Source: Fluviicola sp. (GTDB lineage Bacteria; Bacteroidota; Bacteroidia; Flavobacteriales_D; Crocinitomicaceae). Taken from it: 64,000 bases of DNA. The stretch spans positions 1 to 64,000 of the forward strand of contig JAJTEO010000010.1 in assembly GCA_021300395.1 (NCBI GenBank), given 5' to 3'. This document shows positions 41,549 through 49,754 of the stretch, one piece after another; position 1 is the first letter of the stretch, and each line of letters opens with the position of its first letter. The position numbers and the translations under genes were made by a program. Under the pieces are notes generated by a model. That model was not told where the DNA came from and ran no database searches. It worked only from the letters and a program-made list of their open reading frames with translations.

Positions 41549-42313
41549 TTACTCTGCAGACAACATTCCTTTTAAATATTCTCTGTTCATACGAGCGATA
41601 TTTTCTAAAGAAATCTCTTTTGGACATTCAACAGCACAAGCACCTGTATTTGTACAGTTACCGAAACCTTCTTCATCCATTGTTCTAACCATGTTTAATA
41701 CTCTGTCTCTTGCTTCCACTTTACCTTGTGGTAATAAAGCATATTGAGAAACTTTTGCAGCAACGAAAAGCATAGCAGAAGCATTTACACAAGAAGCCAC
41801 ACAAGCACCACATCCAATACATGCAGCTGCTTCAAAAGCTTTATCTGCATCATGTTTAGGAATAGGAATTGCATTTGCATCCATTGTTCTTCCTGAAGTG
41901 TTTACAGAAACGAATCCACCAGCTTGTTGAATACGATCAAATGAACTTCTGTCAACAACTAAATCTTTGATTACAGGAAATGCTTTTGCTCTAAATGGTT
42001 CAACAAAAATCGTTTCACCATCTTTGAATTTACGCATGTGTAATTGACATGTTGTAACAGCTCTATCTGGTCCATGAGCTTCTCCATTAATAAATAAAGA
42101 ACACATTCCACAAATTCCTTCACGACAATCGTGATCGAAAGCGATTGGTTCTTGACGTTCGTTAATTAACTGCTCATTCAATTGATCCAACATTTCCAAG
42201 AAAGAACTGTCAGTAGAAACATTATCTAATTTATAAGTTTCCATGCTTCCTTTAGAATTAGCATTCTTTTGACGCCAAATCTTAAGGTTTATGTTTATTG
42301 TTTTACTAGCCAT
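41549..42313 (-). CDS. sdhB: Succinate dehydrogenase/fumarate reductase iron-sulfur subunit
   Basis: [26 protein letters not shown], start MASKTINI. Confidence 0.95.
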
Positions 42314-42327
42314 TTTTTTTAAGTTTT

Positions 42328-42353
42328 TAGTCATTAGGCAATAGGCATTAGTT
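42328..42353. repeat. Left inverted repeat of S23-gene insertion
   Basis: TAGTCATTAGGCAATAGGCATTAGTT, 24/26 match to reverse complement of 42758..42783. Confidence 0.85.
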
Positions 42354-42372
42354 AAGCCCATTACCTAAAGAA

Positions 42373-42756
42373 TTAAACAATCATTTTGTTATTAATATCA
42401 AGTTTTTTAATAAATGAATTGATCATCTTACTTTCTTCTTCAATTAAAAGAAAGATTGAATCATTTAATTCTTTATTTAAAACATAATTAAGCTTTTTAG
42501 CAATTATTAATTGAGTTTCTAATTCGAAAAGTGATCCTCGAGCAATTCTTAAAAATTGTATGTAACTCTTTGTTGAATTACGTCCATAACCTTCAGAAAT
42601 GTTGCTAGGAACAGAAATTGCACATCTTCTCATTTGTGACGTCAATGTAAATTGTTCTTCAGAAGGAAAATTTTTGGTTAACTGATATGTTTTTTCAGTT
42701 ATTTCGATTCCCTTTTGCCAAATCAACAAATCTTTATATGACTTAATTTCACTCAT
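42373..42756 (-). CDS. Four-helix-bundle protein (23S rRNA intervening-sequence / S23 family)
   Basis: SYKDLLIWQKGIEI..RCAISVPSNISEGYGRNSTKSYIQFLRIARGSLFELETQL. Confidence 0.93.
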   Translation of the reverse strand: MSEIKSYKDLLIWQKGIEITEKTYQLTKNFPSEEQFTLTSQMRRCAISVPSNISEGYGRNSTKSYIQFLRIARGSLFELETQLIIAKKLNYVLNKELNDSIFLLIEEESKMINSFIKKLDINNKMIV

Positions 42757-42757
42757 C

Positions 42758-42783
42758 AACTATTGCCTATTGCCTAATTACTA
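42758..42783. repeat. Right inverted repeat of S23-gene insertion
   Basis: AACTATTGCCTATTGCCTAATTACTA. Confidence 0.85.
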
Positions 42784-42787
42784 ATGC

Positions 42788-44800
42788 CTATTTATAATTT
42801 CTAGCTGCTATTTTAATGAATTCATACTTCAACTCTTCTTTATGAAGAACTTCTTGATTGATATCATCACCTTTATATTCCCAAGCACCAGCAAATTTAA
42901 AGTTTTCATCATCACGTAATGTTTCACCTTCTGCATCTTGGTATTCTTCTCTGAAGTGACCTCCACAAGATTCTTTACGTTGTAATGCATCAATTGCCAT
43001 CAAATGTCCTAGTTCAATAAAGTCAGCAACTCGAATTGCTTTTTCTAATTCTGGATTTAATTCGTCAGCACTTCCTGGTACAAATACATTATTATGAAAT
43101 TCAGCTTTTAATGCACCAATCTCTTCAATTGCTTCTTTTAAACCCTGCTCGTTACGTCCCATACCAACTTTGTTCCACATAATTAATCCTAATTTTTTAT
43201 GGAAAAAGTCAACAGATTTTGTACCGTTGTTGTTTAAGAATTTATTGATTTGATCTTTTACTCTTTGTTCAGCTGCATCAAATTCAGCAGTATTCGTTGG
43301 GATTGCTCCTGTACGAATTTCATTTGCTAAGTAATCAGAAACAGTGTATGGTAATACGAAATAACCATCAGCTAAACCTTGCATTAAAGCAGAAGCACCT
43401 AAACGGTTCGCTCCGTGATCAGAGAAGTTTGCTTCTCCAGCTACGAAACATCCTGGGATTGTAGATTGTAAGTTGTAATCAACCCAAACACCACCCATTG
43501 TGTAGTGAACTGCTGGATAAATTTTCATAGGAGTTTCATACGGATTTTCATCTGTAATTTTCTCATACATTTGGAATAAGTTTCCGTATTTACTTTCAAC
43601 CCATTTTTTACCTAAAGCGATGATTTCTTCTTCAGATGCATTGTGGTTACCTGCTGCATAAGCTGCTTGTTTACCTTTACTTTTGATTTCAGAAGAGAAA
43701 TCTAGGTATACACCTTCGTTTGTATCATTTGCTTCGATTCCGTAACCAGCATCACATCTTTCTTTAGCTGCTCTTGAAGCAACATCACGTGGAACTAGGT
43801 TACCGAAAGCAGGGTATCTTCTTTCTAAGTAGTAATCTCTATCTTCTTCAGCGATTTGAGTTGGTTTTAATTTTCCAGCTCTGATTGCTTCAGCATCTTC
43901 TTTTTTCTTAGGTACCCAAATACGTCCTGAGTTACGTAAAGATTCAGACATCAATGTTAATTTTGACTGATTCGTTCCGTGAACTGGAATACATGTTGGG
44001 TGAATTTGTACATAACAAGGATTAGCAAATAAAGCACCTTGTTTGTGAATTTTCCAAGCAGCTGTTACGTTACTTCCCATTGCATTTGTAGACAAGAAAT
44101 ATACGTTTCCGTAACCTCCTGAAGCAATGATTACAGCGTGAGCTGAATGTCTTTCGATTTCACCAGTAACTAAGTTACGTGCAATGATACCTCTAGCTTT
44201 TCCATCCACTTTCACGATGTCTAACATTTCGTGACGGTTGTACATTTTTACACGTCCTAAACCAATTTGACGAGATAAAGCAGAATAAGCACCTAATAAT
44301 AACTGTTGACCAGTTTGACCAGCTGCATAAAACGTTCTTTGAACTTGCGTTCCACCAAATGAACGGTTATCTAATAACCCTCCGTATTCACGTGCAAAAG
44401 GAACACCTTGAGCAACACATTGATCGATGATGTTACCAGAAACTTCAGCTAAACGGTGAACGTTTGCTTCACGTGCTCTGTAATCTCCACCTTTAATTGT
44501 ATCGTAAAATAAACGGAAAACAGAATCTCCATCATTTTGGTAATTTTTTGCAGCGTTGATACCTCCTTGAGCTGCAATAGAGTGAGCTCTACGTGGAGAA
44601 TCTTGGAAACAAAATGCTTTCACATTGTATCCCATTTCACCTAAAGAAGCAGCTGCAGAAGAACCTGCTAAACCTGTACCAACAACGATAACGTCGATTT
44701 TTGGACGGTTGTTTGGAGCAACTAACTTTAAATGATCTTTATAATCAGTCCATTTTTGAGAAATGTGACCTTCTGGTATTTTTGAATCTAATATTGACAT
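42788..44800 (-). CDS. sdhA: Succinate dehydrogenase/fumarate reductase flavoprotein subunit
   Basis: [52 protein letters not shown]. Confidence 0.96.
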
Positions 44801-44821
44801 TGTCTACTAGTTTTAAGAGTC

Positions 44822-45682
44822 TTATTTAACAAATAGGTAAATTGGAATGATTGCAAATAATGCAGGCACTACAATTGCGAATATTTTACCAATCAATTCA
44901 ATTGATGGAGTATATCGTTTGTGACGAATTCCTAAAGATTGAAATGCTGATGAGAAACCATGCATTAAGTGGAATGATAAAACAGCCATTGAAAGTGTAT
45001 AAAGGATAACAGCAACTAAAGCTAATTTATTTCCTTCCACACCATTTGTTTCTTTACCACTGAAAAATGCTACAACATTTGAATGTAAATCTTTATAACC
45101 TTCAGCAACTTTTAAGTTTGATTTAGCGATGTAAAGATCTAATTCGTTTTTTACTTCGATTTGTGGAACATCTGGAATTGGATTAACAGATGGCGTATGT
45201 GTGTAATATACCATTTGTTTTTGTTCACCCATTTGTCCTGGAGTAACTAACTCATATTTGTGCAATTTCAAGCCTCCAAAATGCATTTTAGCCCAGAAGT
45301 TAACCATGTGCGTTACGATGAACAATAAAATAATTGTTCCTAATACAGCCATTTTACGAGCAACTGAAGATGAATTCGAAGCTGCATTGTTCATTGCATA
45401 CTGAACTGGTCTTGCTTTTTTGTTTTGAACAGCCAACATGATTCCGTCAATTGCATGGAATAATATTGAAAGATAAGTAACGTATGACATTACTTTAATG
45501 AACGGATTGTGCTGCATGAAATATGCATACTCATTAAACGCTCTTCTTCCTTCTTCACCAGCGATAAACAACTGAAGATTCCCTAGAAGGTGACCAACTA
45601 GGAAGAGGCATAAAAATAACCCAGTCAATGCCATCCAATATTTCTTGGCAATTGAGGATTTTAATAATACAGACTTACTCAT
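44822..45682 (-). CDS. sdhC: Succinate dehydrogenase cytochrome b subunit
   Basis: Multi-TM, GLFLCLFLVGHLLGN, LMHGFSSAFQSLG, operonic with sdhA. Confidence 0.9.
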   Translation of the reverse strand: MSKSVLLKSSIAKKYWMALTGLFLCLFLVGHLLGNLQLFIAGEEGRRAFNEYAYFMQHNPFIKVMSYVTYLSILFHAIDGIMLAVQNKKARPVQYAMNNAASNSSSVARKMAVLGTIILLFIVTHMVNFWAKMHFGGLKLHKYELVTPGQMGEQKQMVYYTHTPSVNPIPDVPQIEVKNELDLYIAKSNLKVAEGYKDLHSNVVAFFSGKETNGVEGNKLALVAVILYTLSMAVLSFHLMHGFSSAFQSLGIRHKRYTPSIELIGKIFAIVVPALFAIIPIYLFVK

Positions 45683-45907: not shown

Positions 45908-46204
45908 ATGAAAACGTTCATTTTTGTTCTCCTTTCGTTTCCTTTATTTTCTCAAAACAGTGAGAAAAACTTAGAAAAAGTTGAAACATTTGTTTATCCA
46001 AACCCATCTGCAATTGGAAAATTTAAAGTGGTTGCAGAGGAAAATTCATACTTCTTATTATATACAACTTCTGGGACATATATCGGAAAATGGGAGTTTG
46101 GTACCTCAACTGAAATTGAAGTGGAAGATATTCCGCCAGGGTTTTATCAAGCGATTATTGAAAAAAATGGTAAAAGTGAATTTAAAAAGATAGTTATTTT
46201 ATAA
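45908..46204 (+). CDS. Short secreted protein consisting mainly of a T9SS type A sorting domain
   Basis: Signal peptide then VYPNPSAIGKFKV...PGFYQAIIEKNGKSEFKKIVIL. Confidence 0.7.
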   Translation: MKTFIFVLLSFPLFSQNSEKNLEKVETFVYPNPSAIGKFKVVAEENSYFLLYTTSGTYIGKWEFGTSTEIEVEDIPPGFYQAIIEKNGKSEFKKIVIL

Positions 46205-46260: not shown

Positions 46261-47475
46261 TTGAATATGTATAAATATCCTGAAAAGTGGAATGAAGATT
46301 TTTTGAAGTCCATGAGTTTAAAAAAGGATCCCTTAGCAGATAATGTCATCAATGATATTGTTTTAGGGAACGATTTTAATGATTTGCGTCACTTGTTTAT
46401 GACTTTGACAGATAATAATGACAAATCAAGTGGTTCTGAAATGAATCCTTCTGTTTACAATTATTTTAATCAAAATAATGAATTGCCACTTTGGGCTGAT
46501 CAATCAAAAATTGAATTGGCCCAAAGTGTTTATTATCGTCATGGACCACAAATTTCGATGATACTTAATTTTTATGCGTTACCACTCTGTTATTCTTGTA
46601 AAAATGGTGCGAAAGTATTGGCTGCTACGGGAAGATTATCTGGAACAAATAAAGATGTTGGGAGAACTTTTAGACGTTTGTTTGAAACTTCAAAAATTGT
46701 TTTAGATACAATGACTGAAGGCGGTTTGTCTGATAAAGGTGCTGGAATTGTTACTGCAAAAAAAGTGAGATTATATCATGCTGCAATTCGTTATTTTTTA
46801 CTTCACGAAAAATGTAACCCTGCTGGTTGGGATGTTGAAACTTTAGGTGAACCAATTAATCAGGAGGAAATGGCTGGGACGTTGATGTCTTTTTCGGCTT
46901 TGGTAATTGACGGCTTAGAACAATTAGGAGCAAAATTAACTACTAAAGAAAAAGATTCCTATATTCATTTGTGGAATATTGTAGGCCATTTTATGGGAGT
47001 TGATGCTTCGTTATTTCCTTCAAATTATAAAGAAGGATGGTCGCTTGGAGTTTCTATTATCAATAGAAATTACCATTCAAGTGAGGATTCAATAGTGTTA
47101 ACGAAATCATTGTTGGATTTTTCAGAGAATATTTTTCAAAAAACGAAAATGCATCATTTGGTATTAAAAACAATGCCTTTTTATTTAATTCAATTTTTTA
47201 GTTTGAAGGTTTCAAAAGAAATTAATCAAAACATTCCAGCTTTACTTGGGGTGAATAAAAAATTAAATTTCTTTCAAAAGTTTAAAGGAGGAGTATTCAT
47301 TTTTATAATTCAATTACTTTCGAAATTAGAAAACAAGAGTAAATTCTTTCGAAAAATCTATGCTCGAATCACTCAAAAATATTTAAAAAAGATGATTCAG
47401 TTTTATTTAGAGACGTATAACGCAGACTTTTATATTCCTTCTTCTTTGAAAGCAAGTTGGAAAATGAAAGGGTAA
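46261..47475 (+). CDS. Oxygenase MpaB-like / DUF2236 family protein
   Basis: YYRHGPQISMILNFYALPLCYSCKNGAKVLAATGRL...W..VGHFMGVDASLFP. Confidence 0.75.
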   Translation: MNMYKYPEKWNEDFLKSMSLKKDPLADNVINDIVLGNDFNDLRHLFMTLTDNNDKSSGSEMNPSVYNYFNQNNELPLWADQSKIELAQSVYYRHGPQISMILNFYALPLCYSCKNGAKVLAATGRLSGTNKDVGRTFRRLFETSKIVLDTMTEGGLSDKGAGIVTAKKVRLYHAAIRYFLLHEKCNPAGWDVETLGEPINQEEMAGTLMSFSALVIDGLEQLGAKLTTKEKDSYIHLWNIVGHFMGVDASLFPSNYKEGWSLGVSIINRNYHSSEDSIVLTKSLLDFSENIFQKTKMHHLVLKTMPFYLIQFFSLKVSKEINQNIPALLGVNKKLNFFQKFKGGVFIFIIQLLSKLENKSKFFRKIYARITQKYLKKMIQFYLETYNADFYIPSSLKASWKMKG

Positions 47476-47577
47476 CTTCATCCGAAATTTCGGATTCGCT
47501 CAGTTACCTTTTCGACTCCACTTAGCTACTATTTTTTTCTCTCGCTGACTCGATAAATTATTTTTATTATTATAACT

Positions 47578-48225
47578 ATGGAATGGATTAATTTTACGGA
47601 TTATACAAAAGCACAACTATTATGGAATGGAATAGGATGTCTGTTTTGGTGTGTTACTTATTTTTATTTGGTAAAGAATAGTTTCAAAACCAAGTTTGTA
47701 GAAATGCCTTTTGTGATTGCATCTGGTAACATTGCATGGGAATTTGTTTGGAGTTTTTGCTTTACTCCGACCACAGGTAAATTGTTTGCATTATCTTATC
47801 AAGCTTGTTTTGTTATTGATGTTTTTATTTTCTCAATGGTATTTTTATATGGTGCAAAACAAATTGAAATACCTGTTGTTAAGAAAAATTTTAAAGTCAT
47901 CCTATTAGGAATCACTTTGTTTTGGTTACCATTAAATTATTTCTTTGTCAAACAGGGTTTCGATACGAGTATAGGCGCTAATTCCGGATATATATTAAAT
48001 GTAATGATTTCAATGCTTTATCCATTGTTATATTTTAGAAATGATCCGAAACATTTTTCGAAAGCGGTTGCTTGGAGTCGATTTTTAGGGACCGGTTGTA
48101 TAACTATATCGATGTTTTTGATTTATCCGTCTAATTATTTCGTTCAAATATTAGGGTTAACGTGTTTTATATTAGATTTGTGTTTTGCTATTCATCTAAC
48201 TATAAATGCAAATAAGAATAAGTGA
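47578..48225 (+). CDS. Integral membrane protein, PaxB-like (transmembrane terpene-cyclase family) candidate
   Basis: ~7 TM; SGNIAWEFVWSF, VIDVFIFSMVFLYG, MISMLYPLLYFRNDP..AVAWSRFLGT. Confidence 0.5.
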   Translation: MEWINFTDYTKAQLLWNGIGCLFWCVTYFYLVKNSFKTKFVEMPFVIASGNIAWEFVWSFCFTPTTGKLFALSYQACFVIDVFIFSMVFLYGAKQIEIPVVKKNFKVILLGITLFWLPLNYFFVKQGFDTSIGANSGYILNVMISMLYPLLYFRNDPKHFSKAVAWSRFLGTGCITISMFLIYPSNYFVQILGLTCFILDLCFAIHLTINANKNK

Positions 48226-49397
48226 ATAGACTAGAAGAAATAAACAACAAAGGTAGAGCTACAATTGTTAAAACGATCCGTCAGTTTTCGTTAACTACGT
48301 GTTTGTTTTCCGGTATTTCAGCGATTTTCTATTTGATTTTAAGAATGTATCAACCAGCTATAATAGTTTCAATTATTGGTTTGTTGTTTCTTCTGATTTA
48401 TTATTTCAACAAAAAAAACAAGCATACAATAGCTCGAATTATAGCCATTTTTGCGACAAATTTAGGGGTCTTACTTTTTTCTATTAATCTTGGTTTTAAT
48501 ACTGGTTTTTACCTTTATCTATTTGCTTCTCCGCAGTTAATTTATTTATTGTTTAAATTAAGGCAGAAGAAACTGGTATACATCTGTATAGGAATCAATT
48601 TGTTAACTTTTTTAATCATTTTTTTGATTGACTGGTATAAATTAATTAAACCACAAGAATTAACAACTAACGTAATTTCACTTCTCTATTCTTTAAACTT
48701 TGGATTGAGTTTAATATTGAGTTTTATTCTAGTTGCCATTTTTGCAAAAAACAATAAAGTTTATATCGACTTATTGAAAGAAGCGAATGAAGAATTAGAG
48801 GAACAACAGGAAGTTTTGAAAAACAAGAACAATTTAGCTGTTGTTGCAGGTTTGTTGGATTTGCAGAATGTTTTTGTGAAAGAAAAAGCAATTTCAGATA
48901 TTTTGAAAGATTCCAAAAATCGAATTAAATCGATTGCACTTTTACATGAAAAATTATATGTCCATAAAGATTTAGATAAAATAAATGTCGAAGAATATAT
49001 TAATGAGTTAATCTATTTTATTAAGTTATCTTATAAACAGAAAAATATTAACATTCAGATTGAAACTGCTATTGAATCAATCCATTTATCAATGGAAACG
49101 GCTTTACCTTTTTCACTATTAGTAAATGAATTGGTCACAAATTCTTATAAACATGCCTTTTTAGGGAAAGAGAATGGTTCAATCAAAATAGACTTTAAAA
49201 CAGAAGGAGAATTCTTGATGTTTAAATACATAGATGATGGTTTAGGATTTGATTTTGATGAAAAATTAAAAACCGATTCAATCGGAACAAATTTAATTAA
49301 TGCTTTTGCTTCTCAATTGAATGGGGAATTCATTAATAATACTAAATTAGGGTCTGGTTGCGAAATGATATTGCGTTTTACTGAAATTACAGAATAA
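48222..49397 (+). CDS. Sensor histidine-kinase-like protein (HisKA_2/HATPase) with atypical H-box
   Basis: N-terminal TMs; NNLAVVAGLLDLQ; LLHEKLY; LVNELVTNSYKHAF; DDGLGFDF. GTG start overlapping the upstream stop region. Confidence 0.85.
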   Translation: MNRLEEINNKGRATIVKTIRQFSLTTCLFSGISAIFYLILRMYQPAIIVSIIGLLFLLIYYFNKKNKHTIARIIAIFATNLGVLLFSINLGFNTGFYLYLFASPQLIYLLFKLRQKKLVYICIGINLLTFLIIFLIDWYKLIKPQELTTNVISLLYSLNFGLSLILSFILVAIFAKNNKVYIDLLKEANEELEEQQEVLKNKNNLAVVAGLLDLQNVFVKEKAISDILKDSKNRIKSIALLHEKLYVHKDLDKINVEEYINELIYFIKLSYKQKNINIQIETAIESIHLSMETALPFSLLVNELVTNSYKHAFLGKENGSIKIDFKTEGEFLMFKYIDDGLGFDFDEKLKTDSIGTNLINAFASQLNGEFINNTKLGSGCEMILRFTEITE

Positions 49398-49400
49398 AAA

Positions 49401-49754
49401 ATGAAAGTATTAATTGTAGAAGATGATTTAATTTTAACGATGTTAAATACTCGTTTTATTGAGATTTTAGGTCACGAAGTGGTGAAAGCATTAAAATCTG
49501 GCGAAGAGGCTGTTGAATTTGCAAAGGAAAATGATATAGATATTATTCTGATGGACATTCGTTTAAAAGGTAAAATGGATGGAATAGAGGCGATGATTGA
49601 AATAAATAAAACGAAAGATATTAAAGCGATTTACATTACTGGTAATTCTGATCCAGAAACCAGAAAAAGAGCGGAAGCTACGAATATGTTAGATTTCTGT
49701 GTAAAACCTTTAAATTTCGAAGAATTAGAAGTAATTCTTGGTAAAATAAATTAA
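49401..49754 (+). CDS. Response regulator receiver protein
   Basis: MKVLIVEDDLILTMLNTRF..DIILMDIRL..YITGN..CVKPL. Confidence 0.93.
   Translation: MKVLIVEDDLILTMLNTRFIEILGHEVVKALKSGEEAVEFAKENDIDIILMDIRLKGKMDGIEAMIEINKTKDIKAIYITGNSDPETRKRAEATNMLDFCVKPLNFEELEVILGKIN

Follow-up and report, generated by a model that had tools for sequence, protein, structure and literature searches.

The locus and its genes

What do two neighbouring genes of Fluviicola sp., one (gene A) resembling MpaB and the other (gene B) resembling PaxB, do in a bacterium? We addressed this question in a stretch of 64,000 nucleotides, called the window throughout, in which an earlier note had read the two genes as a possible isoprenoid-modifying pair. 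Both families and the adjacency stand, but the unit is not one of two genes, since a signal transducer, of interchangeable type, forms its conserved third part. Genes A-D (Table 1) look like an operon, the GTG start of gene C overlapping the stop of gene B by 4 bp. Genes A and B nearly abut in L004 and L005 (L and G numbers denote loci and genomes, respectively). Gene A could start at the TTG at 46261 (404 aa) or at the ATG at 46267 (402 aa), the latter being the likelier true start. The window's genome has a single copy of A and a single copy of B, and NCBIfam gives no match for either gene.

The palindrome in the spacer between A and B is kept in L002 and is not seen elsewhere in the window or the loci; a T-run directly after it is absent. 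A 98-aa protein with little beyond a signal sequence and a T9SS Por_Secre_tail is encoded between a divergent succinate dehydrogenase (SDH) operon and gene A, and is kept there in L002 and L003. The SDH operon is beside the cassette in these two loci too, and not in other lineages. A 128-aa ORF lies between two of its subunit genes, and presumably resembles the 23S-intervening-sequence (four-helix bundle) type of protein.

Table 1. Features of the window, and classes of transducer by locus
Feature	Location	Strand	Evidence or remark
SDH operon, divergent	41549-45682	-	
128-aa ORF within the SDH operon	42373-42759	-	
98-aa Por_Secre_tail protein	45908-46204	+	
Gene A, MpaB/Lcp-type (DUF2236) heme oxygenase (predicted)	46261..47475	+	PF09995 match; profile against 5o1m/5o1l
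R139...T143 of gene A	46675..46689	+	LcpK30 R164 and T168, by alignment to 5o1l/5o1m
H173 of gene A	46777..46779	+	LcpK30 H198 (proximal heme ligand); invariant, 27/27
Spacer A-B, 102 bp, with palindrome TCCGAAATTTCGGA	47476..47577	+	94% identical in L002
Palindrome TCCGAAATTTCGGA	47482-47495		
Gene B, Pyr4-type transmembrane terpene cyclase homologue, 215 aa, 7 TM	47578..48225	+	PF25129; AF2
E55 of gene B (NIAWE), proposed Bronsted acid	47740..47742	+	Pyr4 E63 equivalent; kept in 48/54 homologues
D200 of gene B, last helix	48175..48177	+	Pyr4 D218 equivalent; 51/51 sequences reaching that position
Gene C, sensor histidine kinase, MASE7-like multi-TM N-terminal domain + HisKA_2/HATPase	48222..49397	+	PF07568 E 2.1e-18
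Gene D, single-domain response regulator	49401..49754	+	PF00072 E 2.7e-21
HisKA_2 kinase + receiver	window, L002-L005		
TM-SpoIIE	L014, L057, L092		
7TMR-DISM with SpoIIE or kinase	L006, L090, L093, L095, L096		
TM class III cyclase	L058, L097		
Cyclase-AAA_16-TPR	L010, L013		
AAA_16 STAND-like ATPase	L007, L008, L072, L074		
Ser/Thr kinase-AAA_16 giants, most with GAF	L009, L011, L059, L075-L077, L094, L098		
Histidine kinases	L055, L060		

Gene A and the MpaB/Lcp family

Gene A belongs to the DUF2236 family, as had been suggested. The Pfam model PF09995 (MPAB_Lcp_cat) matches it with E 1.8e-16 (61 bits against a curated cut-off of 23), and the family residues R139, T143 and H173 are present. 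The link to latex-clearing protein also bears out, as profile A1, built from gene A and its relatives, matches the rubber oxygenase LcpK30 (5o1m/5o1l) with E 1e-35. H198 ligates the heme proximally in LcpK30, where it is essential together with R164, and T168 is nearly so (PMC6311187). The corresponding residues are near-invariant in the cassette homologues of A, with Arg and His found in 27/27 and Thr in 23/27. Gene A thus has the heme His and the R/T pair in common with MpaB and Lcp, and differs from them in its bacterial origin and in its linkage to genes for a cyclase and a transducer. It also differs in that LcpK30 E148 (the base) and K167 (the distal ligand) are aligned with Gly and Glu, respectively. 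We therefore place A in the heme-oxygenase family but reject it as a strict latex-clearing protein or rubber oxygenase. A spatial substitute for such residues was proposed in Nro1, and MpaB splits a farnesyl chain at a double bond, with bacterial relatives reported to be alkene-cleaving (PMC12724181). Judging from family and residues, it is plausible that the gene A product binds heme b and oxidises an alkene.

Gene B and the Pyr4 family

Gene B had been likened to PaxB and Pyr4, and it proves to be a member of that family at the sequence level: PF25129 (Pyr4-TMTC, Pfam) matches it with E 3.9e-18 and 66.4 bits against a curated cut-off of 27. The NIAWEF motif picked out earlier lies at residues 51-56, and the conserved-looking Asp in the following helix is D81, which is kept. 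The plan of about seven TM helices is seen in the AlphaFold2 model (mean pLDDT 94.6, pTM 0.87) as seven long helices and one short one (99-103). The third invariant acid is D200. Gene B has both the NxxWE Glu (E55) and the C-terminal Asp (D200) of the family, which are E63 and D218 in Pyr4. E55 is kept throughout the signalling clade of B proteins, except in the second tandem copy of L013. An acidic residue acts as the Bronsted acid in Pyr4-like enzymes (PMC13307353), and cyclisation of a prenyl chain by the gene B product is plausible, as predicted from its family and intact acids. No relatives of solved structure were found by sequence search.

Gene B has its family, the 7-TM plan, the NxxWE motif and the C-terminal Asp in common with Pyr4, PaxB, XiaH, TylF and ZigF (all PF25129). 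The characterised bacterial Pyr4-like cyclases adjoin prenyltransferases, P450s and other terpenoid genes (PMC13307353), whereas the clade of gene B is found beside MpaB and a transducer, without a prenyltransferase, and on a separate branch. In the window the ORF list and Pfam gave no prenyltransferase or other terpenoid gene beside B. We rejected a fungal-type meroterpenoid cluster for the signalling clade, as UbiA adjoins only L049 and L051, both outside the clade.

Two tandem Pyr4-like genes are found per cassette in L010, L011, L012 and L013 (Acidobacteriota, Gemmatimonadota and Leptospiraceae). The second copy of L013 has lost the catalytic Glu (NLAWI), and the tandem copies hint at heteromers. 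A single Chlorobi-like Pyr4 branch (L046, L050, L053, L054 and L056) has Ala in place of the catalytic Glu (NFSWA).

Conservation of the pair

The adjacency of A and B, which the earlier note had left to be checked in related genomes, is conserved across phyla far more often than chance would explain. A scan of the genomes of 84,980 species yielded 13 close relatives of B, and every one of the 13, which span four phyla, has an MpaB-like gene within its cluster. They are mostly from Bacteroidota (one from Kapabacteria), with two from Acidobacteriota, one from Gemmatimonadota and one from Leptospiraceae. PF09995 is present in 19 of the 25 genomes with a signalling-type Pyr4 gene, and in each of the 19 it is within the cassette; only G782 has a further copy outside. 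Most other PF09995-bearing Bacteroidota have PF09995 without Pyr4, so the linkage is not forced by ubiquity of the oxygenase. The only Pyr4 homologues found in a plasmid search belong to the outgroup, i.e. Nostoc and Streptomyces, and where they are annotated neither MpaB nor a kinase lies beside them (the region in S. clavuligerus lacks annotation).

A signal transducer as the third partner

The neighbourhoods of Pyr4 homologues within and beyond the phylum were scanned with Pfam and with HMMs made from the domains of the neighbours. Of 34 loci, 31 have a transducer next to the cassette; the loci share ancestry and are thus not independent trials. Among ORFs further out in the same loci, 4 of 147 (2.7%) have such domains. 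The 31 are 28 loci that a script counted as immediately adjacent, plus L003 and L004, where the kinase is split in two ORFs, and L094, where a giant lies beside Pyr4. Two of the other three loci, L012 and L061, end at contig edges, and only L089 is truly without a transducer. Some of these neighbours served as seeds for the HMMs; the Pfam scans identify the domains independently. Many of the junctions with the transducer gene overlap or are 0-13 bp apart. Transducer genes are split in two ORFs in L003, L004, L093 and L096, through either sequencing error or a real frameshift.

The N-terminal multi-TM domain of the window kinase, which is MASE7-like, is homologous to that of a Kapabacteria-type SpoIIE protein (hhalign 96.6%); its predicted model is moderately confident (pLDDT 70.7). 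The profile of this sensor domain matches in 12 of 25 cassette genomes and in 2 of 55 others (Fisher 5e-6, or 1e-4 when adjacent cases are left out and 6e-4 for genomes of at least 3 Mb). We take this enrichment as support only, MASE7 being common and the 80 genomes not being phylogenetically matched. Among the matching genomes is G912, which has a Pyr4-FAD pair without an adjacent transducer and encodes a strong stand-alone match to the sensor domain (E 1.5e-33), a HisKA_2 kinase.

Swapping of parts

The signalling-type Pyr4 proteins lie on one side of a branch with support 100/97 (100/99 with Nostoc and Streptomyces added), apart from those of Nostoc and Streptomyces, from the two homologues beside UbiA and from Chlorobi-like sequences, a label that is our reading of family f18 from its gene content. 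At least 11 changes of output class fall on the Pyr4 tree, with the transducer linked throughout, and this repeated change is a stronger argument than the locus counts. The oxidase type changes at least five times. A FAD amine-oxidase-family protein takes the place of MpaB in L089, L092 and L097, the transducer being kept in the last two. L109 and L113 have MpaB followed by a CMAS/UbiE-like methyltransferase and a Ser/Thr kinase-AAA_16 protein, and no Pyr4. The MpaBs of L109, L113 and L099 group with the cassette MpaBs (99/98) and apart from 14 other solo MpaBs, in a tree that gave long-branch warnings. As neither enzyme is universal, a modular enzyme pathway is favoured over one fixed receptor.

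L099 has a fusion of caspase, GDSL lipase, MpaB and DUF5995 (L099:1087-6162, 1692 aa), followed by a 7TMR-DISM histidine kinase.

One could argue that A (through its heme) and/or B (through its seven helices) is itself an input module that binds O2, NO, a quinone or another ligand and contacts the transducer. The B gene is indeed tightly coupled to the transducer gene, and the transducers' own sensory parts are mutually unrelated. The AlphaFold2 fold of B also has a likeness to 7-TM proteins of the PQ-loop type (KDEL receptor, SWEET), which is weak (TM 0.55-0.60, E > 0.03) and indicates no function. However the catalytic acids and the heme residues are kept, A is absent in L055, L058 and L060, B is absent in L109, L113 and L099, and the FAD oxidase or methyltransferase that can stand in for them suggests an enzymatic role. 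We consider such a sensor complex unlikely.

Another reading is an anti-phage or other conflict system whose effectors would be STAND, kinase or caspase proteins. AAA_16 or kinase domains do occur in several transducers and in L099 a caspase domain is fused to MpaB, but the outputs are for the most part ordinary enzymes of signalling. PADLOC has no match to A, B or C, nor to the STAND-like proteins of L007 and L074, and its matches to the L075 kinase are to generic kinase models. We rejected a known defence system since A, B and C had no PADLOC match, and a conflict system of any kind seems to us very improbable.

Candidate substrates

No SQS/PSY-family synthase was found in the cassette genomes G568, G760 and G830, which are 99-100% complete, and we hence rejected squalene, phytoene or hopanoid as the general substrate. 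The window's genome and a 99%-complete genome of the same genus also gave none, so that lipidomics of carotenoids, which had been suggested as a check, would be a poor test. Since the synthase is missing from some near-complete genomes, menaquinone or another general prenyl lipid is more likely to be the substrate. Of the 25 cassette genomes, 20 have MenA. No MenA turned up in G014, G737, G653 and G912, or in the 69%-complete G780, which weakens the case for menaquinone as a common substrate. The best candidate is a common prenyl lipid such as menaquinone, or polyprenyl phosphate. For two basidiomycete clusters, Pyr4 homologues acting on a ubiquitous polyprenyl molecule were put forward (PMC11109268).

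Alternatively, the alteration of a membrane isoprenoid by A and B could be an end in itself, e.g. to adjust the quinone pool or protect the membrane, with the transducer sensing stress and controlling them, or answering the same condition. The relatives that have been characterised in bacteria and fungi are enzymes of biosynthesis (PMC13307353, PMC11109268), and the frequent co-occurrence of MenA agrees with this reading. Against it, most of the outputs (SpoIIE phosphatase, cyclase, STAND-like ATPase and kinases) do not bind DNA, and so many changes of output class are unexpected for a dedicated regulator of two enzymes. We regard a purely metabolic role as improbable.

A proposed terpenoid signal

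We propose instead that A and B make an oxidised, cyclised isoprenoid that is sensed by the neighbouring transducer, a reading to which we give about an even chance. The intact catalytic acids and heme residues make an isoprenoid-modifying role of the two plausible. Gene A, with its MpaB/Lcp fold, would oxidise or cleave a prenyl double bond of a membrane isoprenoid. Gene B, with the acids of a Pyr4-type membrane cyclase, would protonate the chain and cyclise it. The resulting terpenoid, most likely derived from a ubiquitous prenyl lipid such as menaquinone or polyprenyl phosphate, would act as ligand of the transducer beside it. In the window, the MASE7-type kinase C would sense it and phosphorylate the receiver D. 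We observe the family of each enzyme, its intact residues, the conservation of the linkage, and the exchange of outputs and of both enzymes; from these we infer the sequential action of A and B, the substrate, and the role of the product as the transducer's signal. Some of the data speak against the proposal. The sensory parts of the transducers are unrelated (MASE7-like, 7TMR-DISM and soluble AAA/GAF giants), which is hard to reconcile with one ligand; L055, L058 and L060 have Pyr4 and a transducer without an adjacent oxidase; and Lcp residues E148 and K167 are not kept in A.

Known synthase-receptor signalling cassettes include LuxI/LuxR, CqsA/CqsS and LqsA/LqsS, and CqsS and LqsS are multi-TM sensors. 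The A-D cassette is like them in having biosynthetic enzymes beside a transducer, in a multi-TM window kinase like CqsS and LqsS, and in the conserved enzyme-transducer adjacency that marks such cassettes (31/34 against 2.7%). It is unlike them in its enzymes, in the proposed isoprenoid chemistry and in its freely swapped transducers, and its signal is only predicted.

Our search of the open-access literature (subscription papers lay outside it) found no report of an MpaB-Pyr4-transducer linkage. A 2026 survey of 1107 bacterial Pyr4-like sequences retained only the 264 with terpenoid genes nearby (PMC13307353). The signalling-type Pyr4 proteins were probably dropped by this filter, and may belong to the unexplained remainder of that survey. 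Each part comes from a known family and the combination is, to our knowledge, new, with a proposed role in signalling.

Two enzymes of kinds that fungi use in making drugs, a heme oxygenase and a membrane terpene cyclase, are thus encoded together in several bacterial phyla, nearly always next to an exchangeable signalling protein. This suggests a terpene-like signal that bacteria may produce. It is possible, at somewhat less than an even chance, that this is a widespread and undescribed form of bacterial signalling, in which the heme oxygenase and the Pyr4-type cyclase make an oxidised, cyclised terpenoid ligand, possibly a quinone derivative, that is read by interchangeable kinases, cyclases, phosphatases and STAND-like proteins. 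If true, relatives of meroterpenoid enzymes would have been recruited to signal transduction across several phyla. The signal would be of a new chemical class in bacteria, for which the cassette provides a genetic handle and the neighbouring transducer a ready readout, and such signalling would be the bacterial counterpart of the terpenoid hormones of plants and fungi.
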